Source of the DNA: Candidatus Zambryskiibacteriota bacterium
Lineage (GTDB): Bacteria; Patescibacteriota; Minisyncoccia; Phycocordibacterales; Zambryskibacteraceae
DNA length: 39,487 nt
Reading direction: 5' to 3'
Assembly: GCA_016180955.1 (NCBI GenBank)
Contig: JACPAD010000003.1
Span: forward strand, 45,316 to 84,802
The translations under genes were made by a program, and so were the position numbers. Shown piece after piece: positions 1,015-36,211 of the stretch (its first letter is position 1; each line of letters opens with the position of its first letter). The notes below the pieces were generated by a model. It worked only from the letters and a program-made list of their open reading frames with translations, ran no database searches and was not told the DNA's origin.

Positions 1015-2009
1015 TCTGGAACTTTCTAAAGAAGGTTTCAGAAGGACTGGGACCGTTTGGATACGGAATAAACAGTTGAATGATTGAATTACACAAAAAG
1101 CTATCTCTTCTTACAGTGATGTAAGAATGGTCCTAAAAAAACACATGGCCGTATGCTGAGAAATCTGTGCACAACAGTGCTGTAGACTCACACTACTAAG
1201 GTATACTATAACCATAGTAACAAAGTGATGAGAGCAGAAAATCAGCAGGAAAGATTAAGAATTGAACAATGGATTCTTGGATTCACAGACGGGGAAGGGT
1301 GCTTCTCGGTAAGTTTTATCAAAAATAAAACTACAAAAACCGGATGGCAAATTTTTCCAGAATTTGTGATTACCCAAGGAGCTAAAAGTTTGCCCGCACT
1401 GGAAATAATAAAAAACTATTTCGATTGCGGAAATCTGTTCGTAAACAAGAGGAGTGATAACCACAAAGAGCACCTTTATCGATATTGCGTAAGGTCTCTG
1501 GATGACTTAAAAACAAAAGTCATTCCGTTCTTTAAGAAAAACTCATTAAAGACATATAAGAGAAATGATTTTGAGATATTCTCAAGAATCGTGGAAATGA
1601 TGTCTGAAAGAATTCATCTAAAAGAAAGCGGAAGAAATAAAATCGCAAAACTTGTAGAAGGTATGAACAGAAAAAAGCAATCTAGATTCTTAAAATCCTC
1701 AGATACCATACGTCGTGCCTGAATTGAAGTTGAAAAGAGGGATCGCTCTCCCCTCAGAAGGAGCACTCCTGTATCCGTGGCTTAGCGGGGAGGAGCAATG
1801 AGTAGGTGTGGGGTAATGGATTCTAAAATCCATTAGGCTAAGCCATGTAATCCCTACGGTAGGCAGCCCCTACCGTTTGGAATTGACCACAAATCAGTTC
1901 CGACCTCAAGGGAGCCGCCACACCCGACTTTCTGCGTGAGAAGGAAAATCTCGCGCCCTCTTTTCAGCTTCAATTCAAGAAGATATGGTACCGTTTTAAG
2001 GAATAACGC
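1015..2009 (+). other. Group I-like intron in 23S rRNA at E. coli ~1931/1932, containing an LHE gene
   Basis: Interrupts the universal CCUAAGGU/AGCGAAAUUCC. Group I R/S-like elements CAGATACCATACGTCG (~1699) and AAGATATGGTACC (~1980) can pair as P7 (TACCATA/TATGGTA). Between them is a 21-bp P8-like helix GAATTGAAGTTGAAAAGAGGG/CCCTCTTTTCAGCTTCAATTC. Exact 3' boundary uncertain. Confidence 0.75.
1225..1722 (+). CDS. LAGLIDADG homing endonuclease (23S intron-encoded), GTG start or ATG at 1228
   Basis: Motif WILGFTDGEGCFSVSF plus family-typical FKKNSLKTYKRNDFEIFSRIVEMM; lies inside the 23S interruption. Confidence 0.88.
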   Translation: MMRAENQQERLRIEQWILGFTDGEGCFSVSFIKNKTTKTGWQIFPEFVITQGAKSLPALEIIKNYFDCGNLFVNKRSDNHKEHLYRYCVRSLDDLKTKVIPFFKKNSLKTYKRNDFEIFSRIVEMMSERIHLKESGRNKIAKLVEGMNRKKQSRFLKSSDTIRRA

Positions 2010-3595: not shown

Positions 3596-3874
3596 ATGGT
3601 TTTGATATACATCATTCTCGTAGCCATTGGTTTTGCGAGTTATAAACTTGTTGGGCTAGTGGCAGCGACAATCATTACGGCTACGGTGGCTGTAGTAGGT
3701 TACGTCACCGCGCTGATCCTTATGAGATTTTTCCCCGATACGTGTGTAAAGTGTGGGGGCACTCGTCTCCAGGAAAACTCTTACACTAGTCTGTTTGTGC
3801 CGTGCATTTGGACTCAGCTACAGTGTCTCGAGTGCGGCGCGATCCAGTACGAGGAAGTCTCGAACGACGAGTAG
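3596..3874 (+). CDS. Small membrane protein with C-terminal zinc-ribbon-like CxxC pairs
   Basis: Two hydrophobic segments, then CVKCGG...LQCLECGA; strong SD. Confidence 0.7.
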   Translation: MVLIYIILVAIGFASYKLVGLVAATIITATVAVVGYVTALILMRFFPDTCVKCGGTRLQENSYTSLFVPCIWTQLQCLECGAIQYEEVSNDE

Positions 3875-7729: not shown

Positions 7730-7802
7730 TTGAAATAGTAATTGACCCGGTAAATAATCACCGACTTTTATTTTGGAAATTATTGTTGTATAATGCACAC
7801 TC

Positions 7803-9122
7803 ATGAGTTCACTCAACCGAAAAGAGCCCTTGGTGCTTCTTTTGGGCGATATACTCTTTTTTCTTGCAGCTTTGTGGCTGACACTCCTTTTACGTAACAT
7901 CGAGCCTCCGACAAAGGAGCTTTTTCTCACTCACCTCCTGCCCTTTAGCATGCTCTTTGCCGCTTGGGTCATCGTCTTCTATATCGCCGGACTTTACGAG
8001 AAGCATACCGTTATCCTGAAATCCAGACTCCCTAATACCCTTGCCGCCGCCCAGCTCACGAATTCTGCCTTGGCCGTTATCTTCTTCTACTTTGTGCCGT
8101 TCTTTCTCATTACACCCAAGACAATTTTGTTCATCTACCTCTTTGTCTCATTTACCCTTATTCTTTTCTGGCGCACTCATGGTTACTTTGCTATCGGGCA
8201 CCGCAGAGCAAGTAACGCAATACTGATCGGTTCGGGAGAGGAAATGAAAGAACTTTTAAACGAAGTTAACAATAATCCCATCTACAATCTTAAGTTCGTT
8301 TCCTCCGTCGACCTCAACCGCACTGATGAGAACGGTTTCTGGAACGAAATTGTCTCGCGCGTCTATTCCGAAGACGTGTCCGTCATTGCCATCGACTTAG
8401 CTCATGAGAATGCCGAACCAGTGCTACCGCATCTCTATAACCTCATCTTCTCCAAAGTAGATTTCATAGATATGCATAAGGTTTACGAAGACATTTTCAA
8501 TCGCGTGCCGCTGTCTCTCTTGCGTTATAACTGGTTCCTCGAGAATGTCTCTGCTACGCCGCGCATCGCCTATGACGCGCTCAAGCGTATTATGGATGTT
8601 TCCGTATCGCTTATTCTCTTTCTCATCTCACTTACCATTTATCCCTTCATTTATCTTGCCGTCAAGCTCGATGACAGCGGAGAGCTCTTCTTTACCCAAG
8701 AGCGCGTCGGCGAGGACAACAAGGTCATCAAGATTCTTAAATTCCGTAGCATGTCTGATGAAGAAAACGTCACAAGAATTGGGAAGTTTTTACGCAAGTC
8801 ACGCATAGATGAGTTGCCACAGCTCTGGAGCGTATTGAAAGGGGACCTCTCGCTCATCGGTCCGCGGCCGGAATTGCCTCAATTCGTCAAACAATACACT
8901 GAGCAGATACCGTACTACAATATCCGTCACATCATCAAGCCGGGGCTCTCTGGCTGGGCACAGATATACCACGACACACATCCGCATCATTTGCCAGATA
9001 CTCTTGAAACTAAGCATAAACTTTCTTATGACCTCTATTACATCAAGAATCGCTCACTCCTTCTTGATTTAAAAATCGCTCTGCGCACCTTAAGGACGCT
9101 GGTTTCTTTGGTTGGCAGATAG
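7803..9122 (+). CDS. Polyprenyl glycosylphosphotransferase (undecaprenyl-phosphate sugar-1-phosphate transferase)
   Basis: N-terminal TM segments; LFFTQERVGEDNKVIKILKFRSM...RKSRIDELPQLWSVLKGDLSLIGPRPELP...KPGLSGWAQI. Confidence 0.93.
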   Translation: MSSLNRKEPLVLLLGDILFFLAALWLTLLLRNIEPPTKELFLTHLLPFSMLFAAWVIVFYIAGLYEKHTVILKSRLPNTLAAAQLTNSALAVIFFYFVPFFLITPKTILFIYLFVSFTLILFWRTHGYFAIGHRRASNAILIGSGEEMKELLNEVNNNPIYNLKFVSSVDLNRTDENGFWNEIVSRVYSEDVSVIAIDLAHENAEPVLPHLYNLIFSKVDFIDMHKVYEDIFNRVPLSLLRYNWFLENVSATPRIAYDALKRIMDVSVSLILFLISLTIYPFIYLAVKLDDSGELFFTQERVGEDNKVIKILKFRSMSDEENVTRIGKFLRKSRIDELPQLWSVLKGDLSLIGPRPELPQFVKQYTEQIPYYNIRHIIKPGLSGWAQIYHDTHPHHLPDTLETKHKLSYDLYYIKNRSLLLDLKIALRTLRTLVSLVGR

Positions 9123-11593: not shown

Positions 11594-11819
11594 GGTGCCC
11601 ACGTCTTAACTAACGAATAAATCCGTCCAGTTGAGACGGGGTCGTCTTCGCTTTTGAAAAAGCTACGACGTGCCAAAGTACTTTGAAAATTGACCCCGTA
11701 AAAGCGTTTCGCGCTCACGGGGCTAGATAGAGAACATGTGTAAGAACCAGTTTGATTCCTATCCGCCGTCGCTAAAGCTATGGCGGAGACACTAGGATCT
11801 GAGTGAGCAAAATAGAAAT

Positions 11820-11842
11820 ATCGTTTTCTCTTTTGTTCCGTT
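11820..11842 (+). other. 5' strand of the 16S precursor processing stem
   Basis: ATCGTTTTCTCTTTTGTTCCGTT pairs with AACGGAACAAAATAGAGAACGAT at 14607-14629 (23 positions, 1 mismatch, 1 wobble). Confidence 0.85.
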
Positions 11843-11946: not shown

Positions 11947-13472
<1,526 letters not shown>

Positions 13473-14320
13473 AATAAAAGCGCGCAGCAGCTTAGTAATC
13501 TAGGTGGTTAAAGTCCATCTCCAAACAATGCGTTTGGATAGCAGAAAGATAGTCCCAATCCGCGAGGATTTGGATGGAGGATCTGAATGCAAAAGACAGC
13601 CGTACGTAAAAAAGCCAGTTGACCTACTAGTGGGCGGTGAGGGTAGGGAAAACTCACAGAAAAGCTTGTACGGATGCCCGGAATAGAATACTGGGTGACC
13701 TGTGGAGATCTGATGCTGTTATCTTGCAAAAGCAGGATATAATTAAACTGACGCAGCGTCAGAAGTCAGCTGAGTCATAGTACCCCAGAATAAAAAACTG
13801 AGGGAAGGAACTCACTCAAATGCAAAGTCTTACGCCAGACTATATTGTGGGCCTTGTGGACGGTGAAGGAAGCTTCACTGTCTACATTAGAGATGTCGAT
13901 GTGGAAAAGAAAGCTGTCAGGCGGGTAACCGCCGAGCCGAAGTTCTACATCAAGCTTATCGAACGCGATAAGAACATCCTCTACGCTCTGAAGGAATTCT
14001 TTGGGTGCGGCAGTGTATACTTTCAAAAAGATACGAGGCCAAACCATCAGAATTGCTACAGATTCGAGGTCTACAATCGCGATGACTTACAAAAAGTCAT
14101 CATTCCGTTTTTCAAGAAGCACGAACTCAAATTCAATTCCAAAAGAAAAGACTTTAAGACATTTTGCGTCTTGATGGAGATGATGAAAAACGAAGAGCAT
14201 CGCACCAAAGCTGGTTTAAGAAAGATGTTTGCTATCAAGCAGACAATGCATTGAGCTCGCTGCATACGGGAAATCTGTCTGTGCAGTGGGAACGGAAATT
14301 CATAGTTTGATGAATCCAAT
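13473..14320 (+). other. Insertion in 16S between ~E. coli 1399 and 1400; 5' part resembles a group II intron, encodes an LHE
   Basis: Splits CUUGUACUCAC/CGCCCGUC. Segment GCGCGCAGCAGC...GGTGGTTAAAGTCCATC...GATAGTCCCAATCCGCGAGGATTTGGATGG...ACAGCCGTACG...CTTGTACGGATGCCCGG...CTGGGTGACC resembles group II domain I. Confidence 0.6.
13820..14254 (+). CDS. LAGLIDADG homing endonuclease (16S insertion-encoded)
   Basis: PDYIVGLVDGEGSFTVYI ... RFEVYNRDDLQKVIIPFFKKHELKFNSKRKDFKTFCVLMEMM. Confidence 0.9.
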   Translation: MQSLTPDYIVGLVDGEGSFTVYIRDVDVEKKAVRRVTAEPKFYIKLIERDKNILYALKEFFGCGSVYFQKDTRPNHQNCYRFEVYNRDDLQKVIIPFFKKHELKFNSKRKDFKTFCVLMEMMKNEEHRTKAGLRKMFAIKQTMH

Positions 14321-14451
14321 CGCCCGTCAACTCAAGGGAGATGGGAGTACCCGAAGTATCACGTATGTGGTCCCACGGTAAGCTCATCGACAGGGAGTAA
14401 GTCGTAACAAGGCACGGGTAGCGGAAGCTGCTCGTGGAGTAATTCAATTCG
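14321..14451 (+). rRNA. rrs: 16S rRNA, exon 2 (3' terminus approximate)
   Basis: CGCCCGTCAACTCAAGGGAG...AGTAAGTCGTAACAAGG, h45 CACGGGTAGC-GGAA-GCTGCTCGTG, then GAGTAATTCAATTCG. Confidence 0.93.
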
Positions 14452-14606
14452 AAAATCTCTGACGTAATGTTGGAGTGATAGAGTCGATCGATGTTTATAC
14501 ATTGAGTTTGGTAGAAACTTAGAACTACATGACTAACAAAGTGTTGGCGAGAGTCCACCTTCGACAAGGCTACGGTGGATGCTCAATTCGATAAATCGAA
14601 TTGGCA

Positions 14607-14629
14607 AACGGAACAAAATAGAGAACGAT
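14607..14629 (+). other. 3' strand of the 16S precursor processing stem
   Basis: Complement of 11820-11842. Confidence 0.85.
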
Positions 14630-14632
14630 ACG

Positions 14633-14662
14633 CAAAAAACTCGCCTGAGGGCGAGTTTTTTG
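14633..14662 (+). terminator. Rho-independent terminator of the 16S unit
   Basis: AAAAAACTCGCC-TGA-GGGCGAGTTTTTT. Confidence 0.9.
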
Positions 14663-14740
14663 CTATATTCATAGCCACCTAGCCTTCGCTTATCTTCCGC
14701 GCGTTTCGCGTCGCCGAAGCCAAGCTACGGCTTGGCGAAG

Positions 14741-14816
14741 GCGCGCGTAGCTCAGCTGGTAGAGCATTCGACTGATACTCGAAAGGTCTCAGGTTCGACC
14801 CCTGACGCGCGCACCA
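14741..14816 (+). tRNA. tRNA-Ile (anticodon GAT), CCA encoded
   Basis: GCGCGCG acceptor, D arm GCTCAGCTGGTAGAGC, anticodon arm TTCGA-CTGATAC-TCGAA, T arm CAGGTTCGACCCCTG, CGCGCGC-A-CCA. Confidence 0.96.
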
Positions 14817-14834
14817 CTCTGCTATAATATTTCC

Positions 14835-15080
14835 ATGCCGAAAAATAAGATTATTCTCGTTATTGGTGTATTGGTTGCTCTCCTGCCCGTACTTGGATTC
14901 CCAAGAGCGTGGGAGTCATTTTTCCAAGTCTTGGCGGGTCTCTCTATTATCCTTCTTTCTGTCTGGACGACTATAGACAGAAAGCTGAAGCTTCAACACA
15001 AAGCTCAATTGCGCCAGCAACACAAGGTGGCTACCGTTGACCCCAGTCCTATTAGTAGTCCGGATGATACAGGACTCTAA
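14835..15080 (+). CDS. Small membrane protein
   Basis: Two hydrophobic segments; TGCTATAAT 6 nt upstream of ATG; overlaps the next start codon. Confidence 0.65.
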   Translation: MPKNKIILVIGVLVALLPVLGFPRAWESFFQVLAGLSIILLSVWTTIDRKLKLQHKAQLRQQHKVATVDPSPISSPDDTGL

Positions 15081-16375: not shown

Positions 16376-17068
16376 ATGACACTTTCAGAACTGATCTGGC
16401 AGCGCGGTTCAGCGCGAGAGATCATGCGAGAAGCGCGGGAGCGTTTTCGAGACAGTATCGGTTTACCTGCTGGGAAGCACGTAGCACTTGCGAGCGTACA
16501 TTACTCGCTCACGAAGCGCTACCTAGACCGGTGGTGGCAAATACCACTGGCCTGGTGGCATTCTTGGCGAGCCGTAATCCATGCCAGGAAGGCATACGCC
16601 ATGGGTGTCACTGACTACAATCAGGCGGACGTTGTCTCAAGAATCCTTTCCAAAGGGATTACCCGCGACCGCCGTCGGGCAATGGAAATTCTTCAGCAGG
16701 TGCTAAGCTATATACCCGCTTCAGAATCGGCGGAGTTACTCCCGCATGCGCGGGCACTCATGCTCTGCACGTTGGGAGAGCTTGAGTGGCGGAGAGGCAA
16801 CACGCACTTGGCGCGGAGAAATTACTACGACGCTCTGCAACTTGTGCCAGCAATCGAACAAGAACTCTCCGATGACCGAGAAAGGCAGCTGGTGCGGGTG
16901 CTTAAAGCGATCGTGTTCTTCTACCTCGACCACGGCGACAGCAACGATATCTACATGTTAGGTGTCGAGTTACTCAAGCGAACGCTCGAACTTACTCGCC
17001 GTGTTTCGAAGGATCAGGAAGAAAAAGTTCTCGCTGGCTGTCGGCGCCGCGGCATTAGCATCGAGTAG
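16376..17068 (+). CDS. Uncharacterised alpha-helical (TPR-like?) protein
   Basis: GCGGAGGTTAT SD; Arg/Trp-rich, long helices; no family recognised. Confidence 0.65.
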   Translation: MTLSELIWQRGSAREIMREARERFRDSIGLPAGKHVALASVHYSLTKRYLDRWWQIPLAWWHSWRAVIHARKAYAMGVTDYNQADVVSRILSKGITRDRRRAMEILQQVLSYIPASESAELLPHARALMLCTLGELEWRRGNTHLARRNYYDALQLVPAIEQELSDDRERQLVRVLKAIVFFYLDHGDSNDIYMLGVELLKRTLELTRRVSKDQEEKVLAGCRRRGISIE

Positions 17069-17135: not shown

Positions 17136-17158
17136 GTTTTTATTGTATAATTGAAAAA

Positions 17159-18760
17159 ATGCCTGAAGATCCTAATAAAGTAACCTATTTCGCCGAGACA
17201 GACTCGCGGCATGACCATAAGAAGTTCGGTATTAAGAGCGCGGACCGCTCTAAGCATATCTATGTCATCGGTAAAACCGGCATGGGCAAATCAACCCTGC
17301 TTGAGAACATGGCCATTCAGGATATCCAAAGTGGCAATGGCATCGCCTTCATCGACCCGCACGGCGGCACGGCGGAGAAGCTCCTCGAGTACGTGCCGGA
17401 GGAGCGGATTAAGGATGTTATCTATTTTGCTCCCTTCGACATGGATTATCCGGTGGCCTTTAACATCATGGAAGATGTGGGTGCCACCAAGCGCCATCTA
17501 GTCGTCAACGGTCTTATGTCAGTGTTCGAAAAAATCTGGGAAGACGCTTGGAGTGCCCGCATGGCCTACATTTTACAAAATACCCTGCTTGCTCTCCTCG
17601 AATATCCCGACGCCACGCTTCTGGCAGTCAACAGAATGTATACCGACAAAGAATTCAGAAACAAAGTGGTCGAGAACGTCACCGACATCTCCGTCAAAAG
17701 CTTCTGGGTCGACGAATACGCCAAGTATACCGACAAGTATGCTCAGGAAGCGACACCCGCTATTCAAAACAAGGTCGGTCAGTTTGCTGGCAATCCCTTG
17801 ATTCGAAATATTATCGGTCAATCAAAATCGAGTTTCGATCTAAGAAAGGTCATGGACGAGAAGAAGATAATGATAGTCAATCTCTCAAAGGGCCGAGTCG
17901 GCGAGGGTAATGCCCACCTTTTGGGCTCGATGCTGATCACCAAGCTATATTTGGCTGCCATGAGTCGCGCCGACGAAAGTGCCATCTCGCTCTCCAAGCT
18001 CCCGCAATTTTATCTCTTCGTGGATGAGTTCCAATCTTTTGCCGACAAATCTTTCGCCGAAATTCTCTCTGAGGCTAGGAAGTACAAGTTGAATCTTACT
18101 ATGGCTCATCAGTATATCGAGCAGATGGAAGAAGAAGTGAGGGATGCCGTCTTCGGCAACGTCGGCACCATGATCACTTTCCGCGTTGGCGCCTACGACG
18201 CCGAAGTACTGGAAAAAGAATTCGCTCCGACTTTTACTGCTGAAGATTTGGTCAACTTAGGCCTGCGCCAGATTTATCTTAAGCTGATGATTGACTCAGT
18301 GACCTCACAGCCCTTCTCGGCCACGACCTTGCCACCCATTGCCGTGCCGGCCGTCTCTTATGTTGAAGAAATTCTCGCCAATTCTCGAAGGACTTATGCC
18401 CGGCCAAAAAGCGTGGTAGAGAAAGCGATTACCGATTGGCATGGCTCCACCACCGACACTAGAAATATTATCGCCGCCAAGCCTAAGCCTATAGTTCCAC
18501 CTCCTCCAAAAATTTCTCTAGAGAGCCTCAAGAATAAAAACAATAACCAGAGGAAGCCCGATGTGAAAAATGTCTCCGCTCTGCGCGATGCGCTGAAGTC
18601 AGTGATGGGGAATCAGCCAAAGGAGAATGCCCAAGCTCCAATGCCCAATGTCCAACCTATCTTGCCGAGTCAAGGCGGGTCAAATCCAAAGCCACAAAGC
18701 CCCAAACCTCAAAATGGTCCAAGTCCGGAAGAGTTGAAAAAGCTGCTCGGAGTAGAATGA
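17159..18760 (+). CDS. VirD4/TraG-like or HerA-like type IV secretion-type ATPase
   Basis: Walker A GKTGMGKSTL, FIDPHGG, LPQFYLFVDEFQSFADKSFAEILSEARKYKLNLTMAHQYIEQM. Confidence 0.88.
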   Translation: MPEDPNKVTYFAETDSRHDHKKFGIKSADRSKHIYVIGKTGMGKSTLLENMAIQDIQSGNGIAFIDPHGGTAEKLLEYVPEERIKDVIYFAPFDMDYPVAFNIMEDVGATKRHLVVNGLMSVFEKIWEDAWSARMAYILQNTLLALLEYPDATLLAVNRMYTDKEFRNKVVENVTDISVKSFWVDEYAKYTDKYAQEATPAIQNKVGQFAGNPLIRNIIGQSKSSFDLRKVMDEKKIMIVNLSKGRVGEGNAHLLGSMLITKLYLAAMSRADESAISLSKLPQFYLFVDEFQSFADKSFAEILSEARKYKLNLTMAHQYIEQMEEEVRDAVFGNVGTMITFRVGAYDAEVLEKEFAPTFTAEDLVNLGLRQIYLKLMIDSVTSQPFSATTLPPIAVPAVSYVEEILANSRRTYARPKSVVEKAITDWHGSTTDTRNIIAAKPKPIVPPPPKISLESLKNKNNNQRKPDVKNVSALRDALKSVMGNQPKENAQAPMPNVQPILPSQGGSNPKPQSPKPQNGPSPEELKKLLGVE

Positions 18761-35473: not shown

Positions 35474-36211
35474 ATGCTTCAAGGCAAAACAGTTCTCGTT
35501 ACGGGCTCATCCCGCGGCATCGGGGCTGTCATCGCAAGGCTCGCCAAGCGATACGGCGCCGAAGTAATCCTCCACGGACGTTTGGAATCAAAGGAGCTTA
35601 CCGCTCTCGCAAAAGAGCTTGACGCTCCATTCGTGACTTTCGATGTTTCCGACGATGAAGCAGTGAGATGGGAAATGTCGAAGCTGGGAAAGATTGATGT
35701 TCTGGTCAACAACGCCGGCATCAATCCGTCGAAGACCTTCCAGAATCTCACGAACAACGACTGGAAGGAGATTTTTGGTATCAATTTCTTTGGCGCCGTG
35801 AACGTCTCTCGAGTTGTGCTCGAGGGAATGACGAGGAGAAAGAATGGTGCAATCATCAACATTGCGTCCATCAAGGGCTTCCCGTACGTTGCCGGTAAAC
35901 CAGCTTACGCTGCCTCGAAGGCGGCGCTCATCCAGTTCACCGCAAGGATGGCGGAGGAATTCGCTCCGCAAGGCATCCGCATCAACGCAGTTGCGCCGGG
36001 CTTCACCGAAACGGAACTGACAACAGGGACGCTCCGGCAGGAAGAGGCGCAAGGTAAGACGGTCCTCTGCGACCAGATCGCGAAGATTCCAATGAAGCGC
36101 ATGGCCAATCCGCAAGAGATTGCGGAGGTTGTGCTCTTCCTCGCCAGCGACAAGGCAAGCTATATCAACGGACAATGCCTAGCCGTCGACGGCGGTCTGA
36201 GCATTGTCTGA
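35474..36211 (+). CDS. Short-chain dehydrogenase/reductase
   Basis: KTVLVTGSSRGIGAVIARLAKRYG...VNNAGINPSKTF...YAASKAALIQFTARMAEEFAPQGIRINAVAPGF. Confidence 0.93.
   Translation: MLQGKTVLVTGSSRGIGAVIARLAKRYGAEVILHGRLESKELTALAKELDAPFVTFDVSDDEAVRWEMSKLGKIDVLVNNAGINPSKTFQNLTNNDWKEIFGINFFGAVNVSRVVLEGMTRRKNGAIINIASIKGFPYVAGKPAYAASKAALIQFTARMAEEFAPQGIRINAVAPGFTETELTTGTLRQEEAQGKTVLCDQIAKIPMKRMANPQEIAEVVLFLASDKASYINGQCLAVDGGLSIV

Follow-up and report, generated by a model that had tools for sequence, protein, structure and literature searches.

A 16S rRNA 3′ tail without an anti-Shine-Dalgarno sequence across an order of CPR bacteria

Layout of the 16S rRNA gene and its 3′ end

The window, that is, the whole 39,487-nt stretch of DNA analysed, with coordinates counted from its first letter, belongs to a genome of 488 kb in seven contigs that is 84.9% complete. 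It carries a 16S rRNA gene split by an insertion and enclosed by a processing stem, with the following features:

11819..11842, + strand: pre-16S processing stem, 5′ arm, pairing with 14607-14630 with one mismatch
11947..13472, + strand: 16S rRNA, first part, from the 5′ end to ...GTACTCAC (Rfam RF00177, 1195 bits)
13473..14320, + strand: 16S insertion, group II intron-like, ~848 bp, ends approximate (Rfam group-II-D1D4-1)
13820..14254, + strand: LAGLIDADG endonuclease ORF within the insertion (Pfam LAGLIDADG_1, E=3.5e-17)
14321..14436, + strand: 16S rRNA, second part, through the end of helix 45, conserved in relatives
14413..14436, + strand: helix 45 with GGAA loop, 10 of 10 positions in standard pairs, two of them G-U
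14437..14449, + strand: predicted mature 3′ tail GAGTAATTCAATT, ~11-13 nt with its end estimated, replacing GATCACCTCCTTA; no anti-SD
14443..14453, + strand: precursor hairpin bridging the predicted mature end, here TTC...GAA, covarying across the order
14607..14630, + strand: pre-16S processing stem, 3′ arm, bounding the trailer and pairing with 11819-11842

The end of the first part was set by joining GTACTCAC to CGCCCGTC, which without the insertion gives normal 16S sequence. Directly before CGCCCGTC, the insertion presented an Rfam group-II-D1D4-1 match above the cut-off (13731-13810); its intron type is uncertain because no GUGYG start was found in it. The ORF inside encodes a LAGLIDADG endonuclease, not a reverse transcriptase. 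The 23S gene likewise carries insertions, and a second LAGLIDADG endonuclease ORF lies within it (window 1225-1722; Pfam E=7e-23). In two relatives (G011 and G034) the 16S 3′ end matched as two pieces with a gap of ~1 kb, the break falling between bases 85 and 86 of the query, which corresponds to a further insertion shortly upstream of helix 45 (window position ~14405). The seemingly full-length match of the Rfam 16S model ended at 13522 inside the insertion, its last columns being forced onto inserted bases ~900 bases short of the real 3′ end at ~14449, so that automatic annotation would miss that end; annotations of this kind would conceal anti-SD losses.

The 3′ region reads GTCGTAACAAGG followed by helix 45 (CACGGGTAGC-GGAA-GCTGCTCGTG), and from 14437 the tail is GAGTAATTCAATTCG in place of GATCACCTCC. 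Neither CCTCC nor CTCC occurred anywhere in 14401-14750. The processing stem is formed by 11819-11829 with 14620-14630 and 11831-11842 with 14607-14618, with one mismatch between the two blocks, and no CCTCC was present up to its 3′ arm at 14607-14630; thus the entire precursor trailer is devoid of an anti-SD, and a CCTCC located further downstream in the precursor was discarded as an explanation. A preliminary description had reported a 16S 3′ end without anti-SD behind a clean helix 45 and no CCTCC before a processing stem, and on each of these points the present results agree with it. It had also considered a second 16S gene with CCUCC; the search of this 84.9% complete genome gave a single 16S match and no GATCACCTCC. 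From the sequence, the mature 3′ end would lie near 14447-14449. The same description had spoken of the loss in CPR lineages with rRNA insertions, and here no tie between the two was visible: four relatives (G017, G032, G056, and G186) have a tail of this kind on an uninterrupted 16S gene of ~1.5 kb, and the insertion was consequently rejected as the cause of the change.

Distribution of the tail across the order, class and phylum

The 3′ ends of other genomes presented the same tail in independent members of the genus, family and order. In a set of 61 genomes formed by the own genome and its relatives, the 135-base 3′ end had a match in 51, which in many of them extended through the tail. When 128 order genomes were scanned, a readable 3′ end (helix 45 plus GGA found) was obtained for 91, and 90 of these lacked CCTCC; most order tails share GGA-WYA-WTTCAA. 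At least 119 stretches of the same pattern occurred in named genomes, many labelled Nomura-, Zambryski-, Taylor-, Adler- or Wolfebacteria. An assembly or binning error at this 16S 3′ end might be suspected in a genome obtained in seven contigs from metagenome-like material, but since dozens of genomes and contigs obtained independently carry this tail, such an explanation, also envisaged in the preliminary description, has a negligible likelihood.

At the phylum level the exact CCTCC pattern was found in 157 of 381 genomes (own order 1/18, rest of the class 2/15, elsewhere 154/348), all of them lower bounds owing to the strictness of the pattern. In the class outside the order, CCTCC was kept in 31 of the 86 genomes with a readable end, as counted from the result rows, and the others presented GGATCATCTCC, GGAACATTTCC, GGATTTTCTCC and similar forms, or wholly different tails. 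The class shows graded anti-SD states, around one third being intact and the remainder eroded or lost. A 16S tree from which the tail was left out grouped the sampled order members in one clade (SH-aLRT 93-97). This clade was nested in a larger one (18 rows, support 99) with no intact core in any of its sampled genomes. Presence or absence of CCTCC required seven changes on this tree, at least two of which are forced by well-supported branches; according to these sequences, loss probably occurred repeatedly within the class.

CCTCC-bearing 16S 3′ ends appeared in four order genomes (contig C68 of G473, C18 of G523, C36 of G485, and C6 of G237), as an extra copy in three of them and as the only match in the other. 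Three of the four ends start with GTCGTCACAAGG, one foreign-looking type, and the contigs that bear them are probably contamination.

These contigs, together with the 84.9% completeness of the own genome, could nevertheless favour the view that CCUCC is supplied from elsewhere, by an unassembled second 16S or by a separate RNA, which would also account for the properly spaced SD-like motifs found at accessory genes (see below). However, for three of the four genomes the extra matches belong to that single foreign-looking type; near-complete relatives (G032 and G501, each in one contig or close to it) as well as G186 have a 16S without anti-SD and no GATCACCTCC; and the lack of SD in conserved genes would be surprising with a working anti-SD. 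We consider this supply from elsewhere quite unlikely. The possibility that an intron separates helix 45 from its anti-SD was also rejected, the few downstream CCTCC of relatives being at scattered positions. As the best explanation, the anti-SD has probably been truly lost from this 16S, as in nearly all of the order, and initiation would take place without pairing between the mRNA and the 16S tail.

Constraint on the new tail and ribosome assembly factors

In the 77 order tails compared, the columns GGA-WYA-WTTCAA were conserved, up to ~14447, and the bases following were far less so. Judging from this drop in conservation, the mature tail would be ~12 nt long; the positions of the former tail would have been retained but recoded to GGA-WYA-WUUCAA. 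CPR tails with anti-SD read CACCTCCTTTCTAAGGAG, whose CTCC is able to pair with a GGAG in the trailer. In relatives, the hairpin is formed by TTCAA/TTGAA or by TTCCAA/TTGGAA, so the alternatives between tail and trailer are TCC/GGA and TCA/TGA. The arms covaried: a TCC arm faced GGA in 11 of 15 cases, and a TCA arm faced GGA in 1 of 53 (Fisher p=1e-8, a value that is optimistic since the sequences are related, although the TCC arm was nonetheless present under many family codes). Energy folding of the isolated tail gave a weak stem only. The hairpin likely spans the mature 3′ end and would be needed for maturation, and the recoding is probably due to a continuing requirement of the precursor for a hairpin across that end.

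The keeping of a covarying tail-trailer hairpin indicated that the new tail is not decayed sequence. The claim of the preliminary description that the tail had been replaced in an otherwise sound gene gained support in this way, as the surrounding rRNA is intact, the tail is conserved order-wide and the hairpin covaries. A plain relaxed decay, in which the tail drifted once SD pairing became dispensable and the likeness within the order reflects shared descent only, would agree with the weak SD use already present in class members with CCTCC and with the diversity of lost tails elsewhere in the class. Under such decay, though, neither the much higher conservation of the order's tail columns than of the adjoining trailer nor the matching of arm changes in the opposite arm would be expected, and both point to constraint, even if not on mRNA pairing; relaxed decay is therefore regarded as rather unlikely.

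Two assembly factors were considered along with the tail. Era recognises GAUCACCUCC (PMC10582724), and Paceibacteria are reported to be mostly devoid of era (PMC12641178). In the 80 class genomes searched, Era was under the family cut-off in every case, with the anti-SD present or absent, and the matches obtained corresponded to other GTPases only. Protein bS21, which is positioned near the anti-SD, was detected in 14 of 34 order genomes without anti-SD vs. 21 of 27 class genomes with CCTCC (p=0.005), being rarer, or present below the cut-off only, in the former. Such lower detection may reflect either loss or divergence, which look alike at the sequence level. The loss of the anti-SD would have come after that of Era and after SD use had become weak.

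Initiation signals and relation to known systems

Initiation signals were studied in sampled stretches from 20 genomes, using ORFs with well-defined ATG starts. SD motifs among first genes amounted to 7-41% in CPR outside the class with CCTCC, 10-17% in class members with CCTCC, and 4-15% in genomes without anti-SD. Conserved genes, defined as those with a homologue in another sampled genome, displayed SD in 3.4% of cases vs. a background of 6.1% in anti-SD-less genomes, as compared with 20% vs. 4.4% in the phylum set. Accessory genes (no homologue in the sample) of anti-SD-less genomes presented SD-like motifs in 14.6% of cases vs. 7.1% background, and five-letter SD words occurred in 48 of 378 accessory vs. 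11 of 413 conserved genes (p=5e-8). These motifs are AAGGAGG at normal spacing. The own genome (G000) contains accessory genes with AAAGGAGG-like motifs at normal spacing at 3596-3874, 16376-17068 and 35474-36211. The accessory motifs would most simply be accounted for if these genes had been acquired recently from bacteria or phages that use SD; less simply, they might be read in some other way.

The conservation of the tail across the order could be taken to mean that it is an altered anti-SD pairing with a new TTGAA-like SD in the leaders. At SD distance, TTGAA-type words showed no enrichment, and leaders hybridised with the new tail just as controls did (-2.54 vs. -2.50 kcal/mol); leaders complementary to the variant tail were thus not found, and an altered pair of this kind is highly improbable.

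A strong upstream signal in anti-SD-less genomes, and the strongest one before conserved genes, was a TATAAT starting at -12 (73 of 722 genes vs. 5.5 expected), which in the own genome was found in 24 of 235 genes vs. 1.6 expected. A -35 signal was weakly enriched at these promoters. Examples of this geometry in the window are:

14823..14828, + strand: TATAAT at -12 of ORF 14835-15080
17146..17151, + strand: TATAAT at -13 of ORF 17159-18760
7789..7794, + strand: TATAAT at -14 of ORF 7803-9122

A TATAAT at -12 occupies the position predicted for a -10 box if transcription begins on the AUG. In many genes the box is set in this way, as in leaderless initiators, and for a considerable fraction of the core genes the A of AUG would be the first transcribed base, giving a leaderless mRNA. 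The majority of genes had neither SD nor a -10 box at -12; genes within operons likewise displayed no SD excess, and would probably be initiated by coupling to the upstream gene, or at unstructured A-rich starts. The TATAAT signal is not specific to anti-SD loss: it was also found in CPR outside the class with CCTCC (19 of 294 genes vs. 1.5 expected) and weakly in class members with CCTCC (6 of 288 vs. 2.1). Because the same peak is present in CPR with CCTCC, leaderless starts look older than the loss and may have been a preparation for it. Tentatively, and with more doubt than for the loss itself, the ribosomes of the order could be considered to bear a selectively maintained tail, GGA-WYA-WUUCAA, with a role in maturation or protein contact, the core genes being leaderless or coupled and the SD motifs of newly acquired genes being useless or otherwise read.

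In mammalian mitochondria, messages are leaderless or near-leaderless. Their small-subunit rRNA is likewise without anti-SD in a bacterial-type ribosome (PMC10582724), whereas here a free genome with operons is concerned and the loss is of separate origin. In Flavobacterium johnsoniae and other Bacteroidia most genes also initiate without SD pairing, but these bacteria keep CCUCC, hidden in a bS21-bS18-bS6 pocket (PMC9976891); in the order studied here CCUCC is gone, which does not fit sequestration of this type, and bS21 is less often detected. Mycobacterium has many genes with the start codon at the 5′ end of the transcript, a condition that here is deduced from the -10 box, and in contrast to our case it retains the anti-SD, and SD for many other genes (PMC4633059, PMC3160421).

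A total of 128 organisms are known to have lost CCUCC, among them many Flavobacteriia, mycoplasmas and insect endosymbionts (PMC6107228, 2018), and a 2024 survey reported as CCUCC-less one Campbellbacteria genome, one Wolfebacteria genome, two SR1 and Peribacter (PMC10783764). With no CCUCC after an intact helix 45, SD in conserved genes at or below background, and one 16S copy (own genome 84.9% complete) together with the agreement of 90 of 91 order genomes, our case corresponds to category iv of that survey. It resembles the known CCUCC-less bacteria in the intact helix 45, a tail variant shared by relatives and little SD in leaders; unlike them, it presents loss throughout an order, all erosion stages within its class, a conserved replacement tail, a covarying precursor hairpin, and SD motifs at accessory genes. 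The preliminary description had left open whether such a loss in CPR had been published: it has been for a few genomes (PMC10783764), so that the novelty lies in the extent and the accompanying features, not in the bare loss. In the open-access literature we found no report of the clade-wide extent, the conserved tail, the hairpin or the leaderless link, and no paper joining anti-Shine-Dalgarno with Parcubacteria or Patescibacteria; with Nomurabacteria, an Era review alone was retrieved. The known kind is therefore the SD-scarce bacterium without CCUCC, and what is new is its clade-wide conserved replacement, covarying hairpin and leaderless geometry.

Few stretches of bacterial rRNA are as conserved as the anti-SD, and most of its known losses concern Flavobacteriia, mycoplasmas and insect endosymbionts. 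In the present clade, errors will arise both from gene finders trained on SD motifs and from rRNA annotation that presupposes CCUCC. A large environmental clade in which the anti-SD passes from intact to eroded to replaced allows one to ask which was lost before which among SD use, Era, bS21 and the anti-SD itself.
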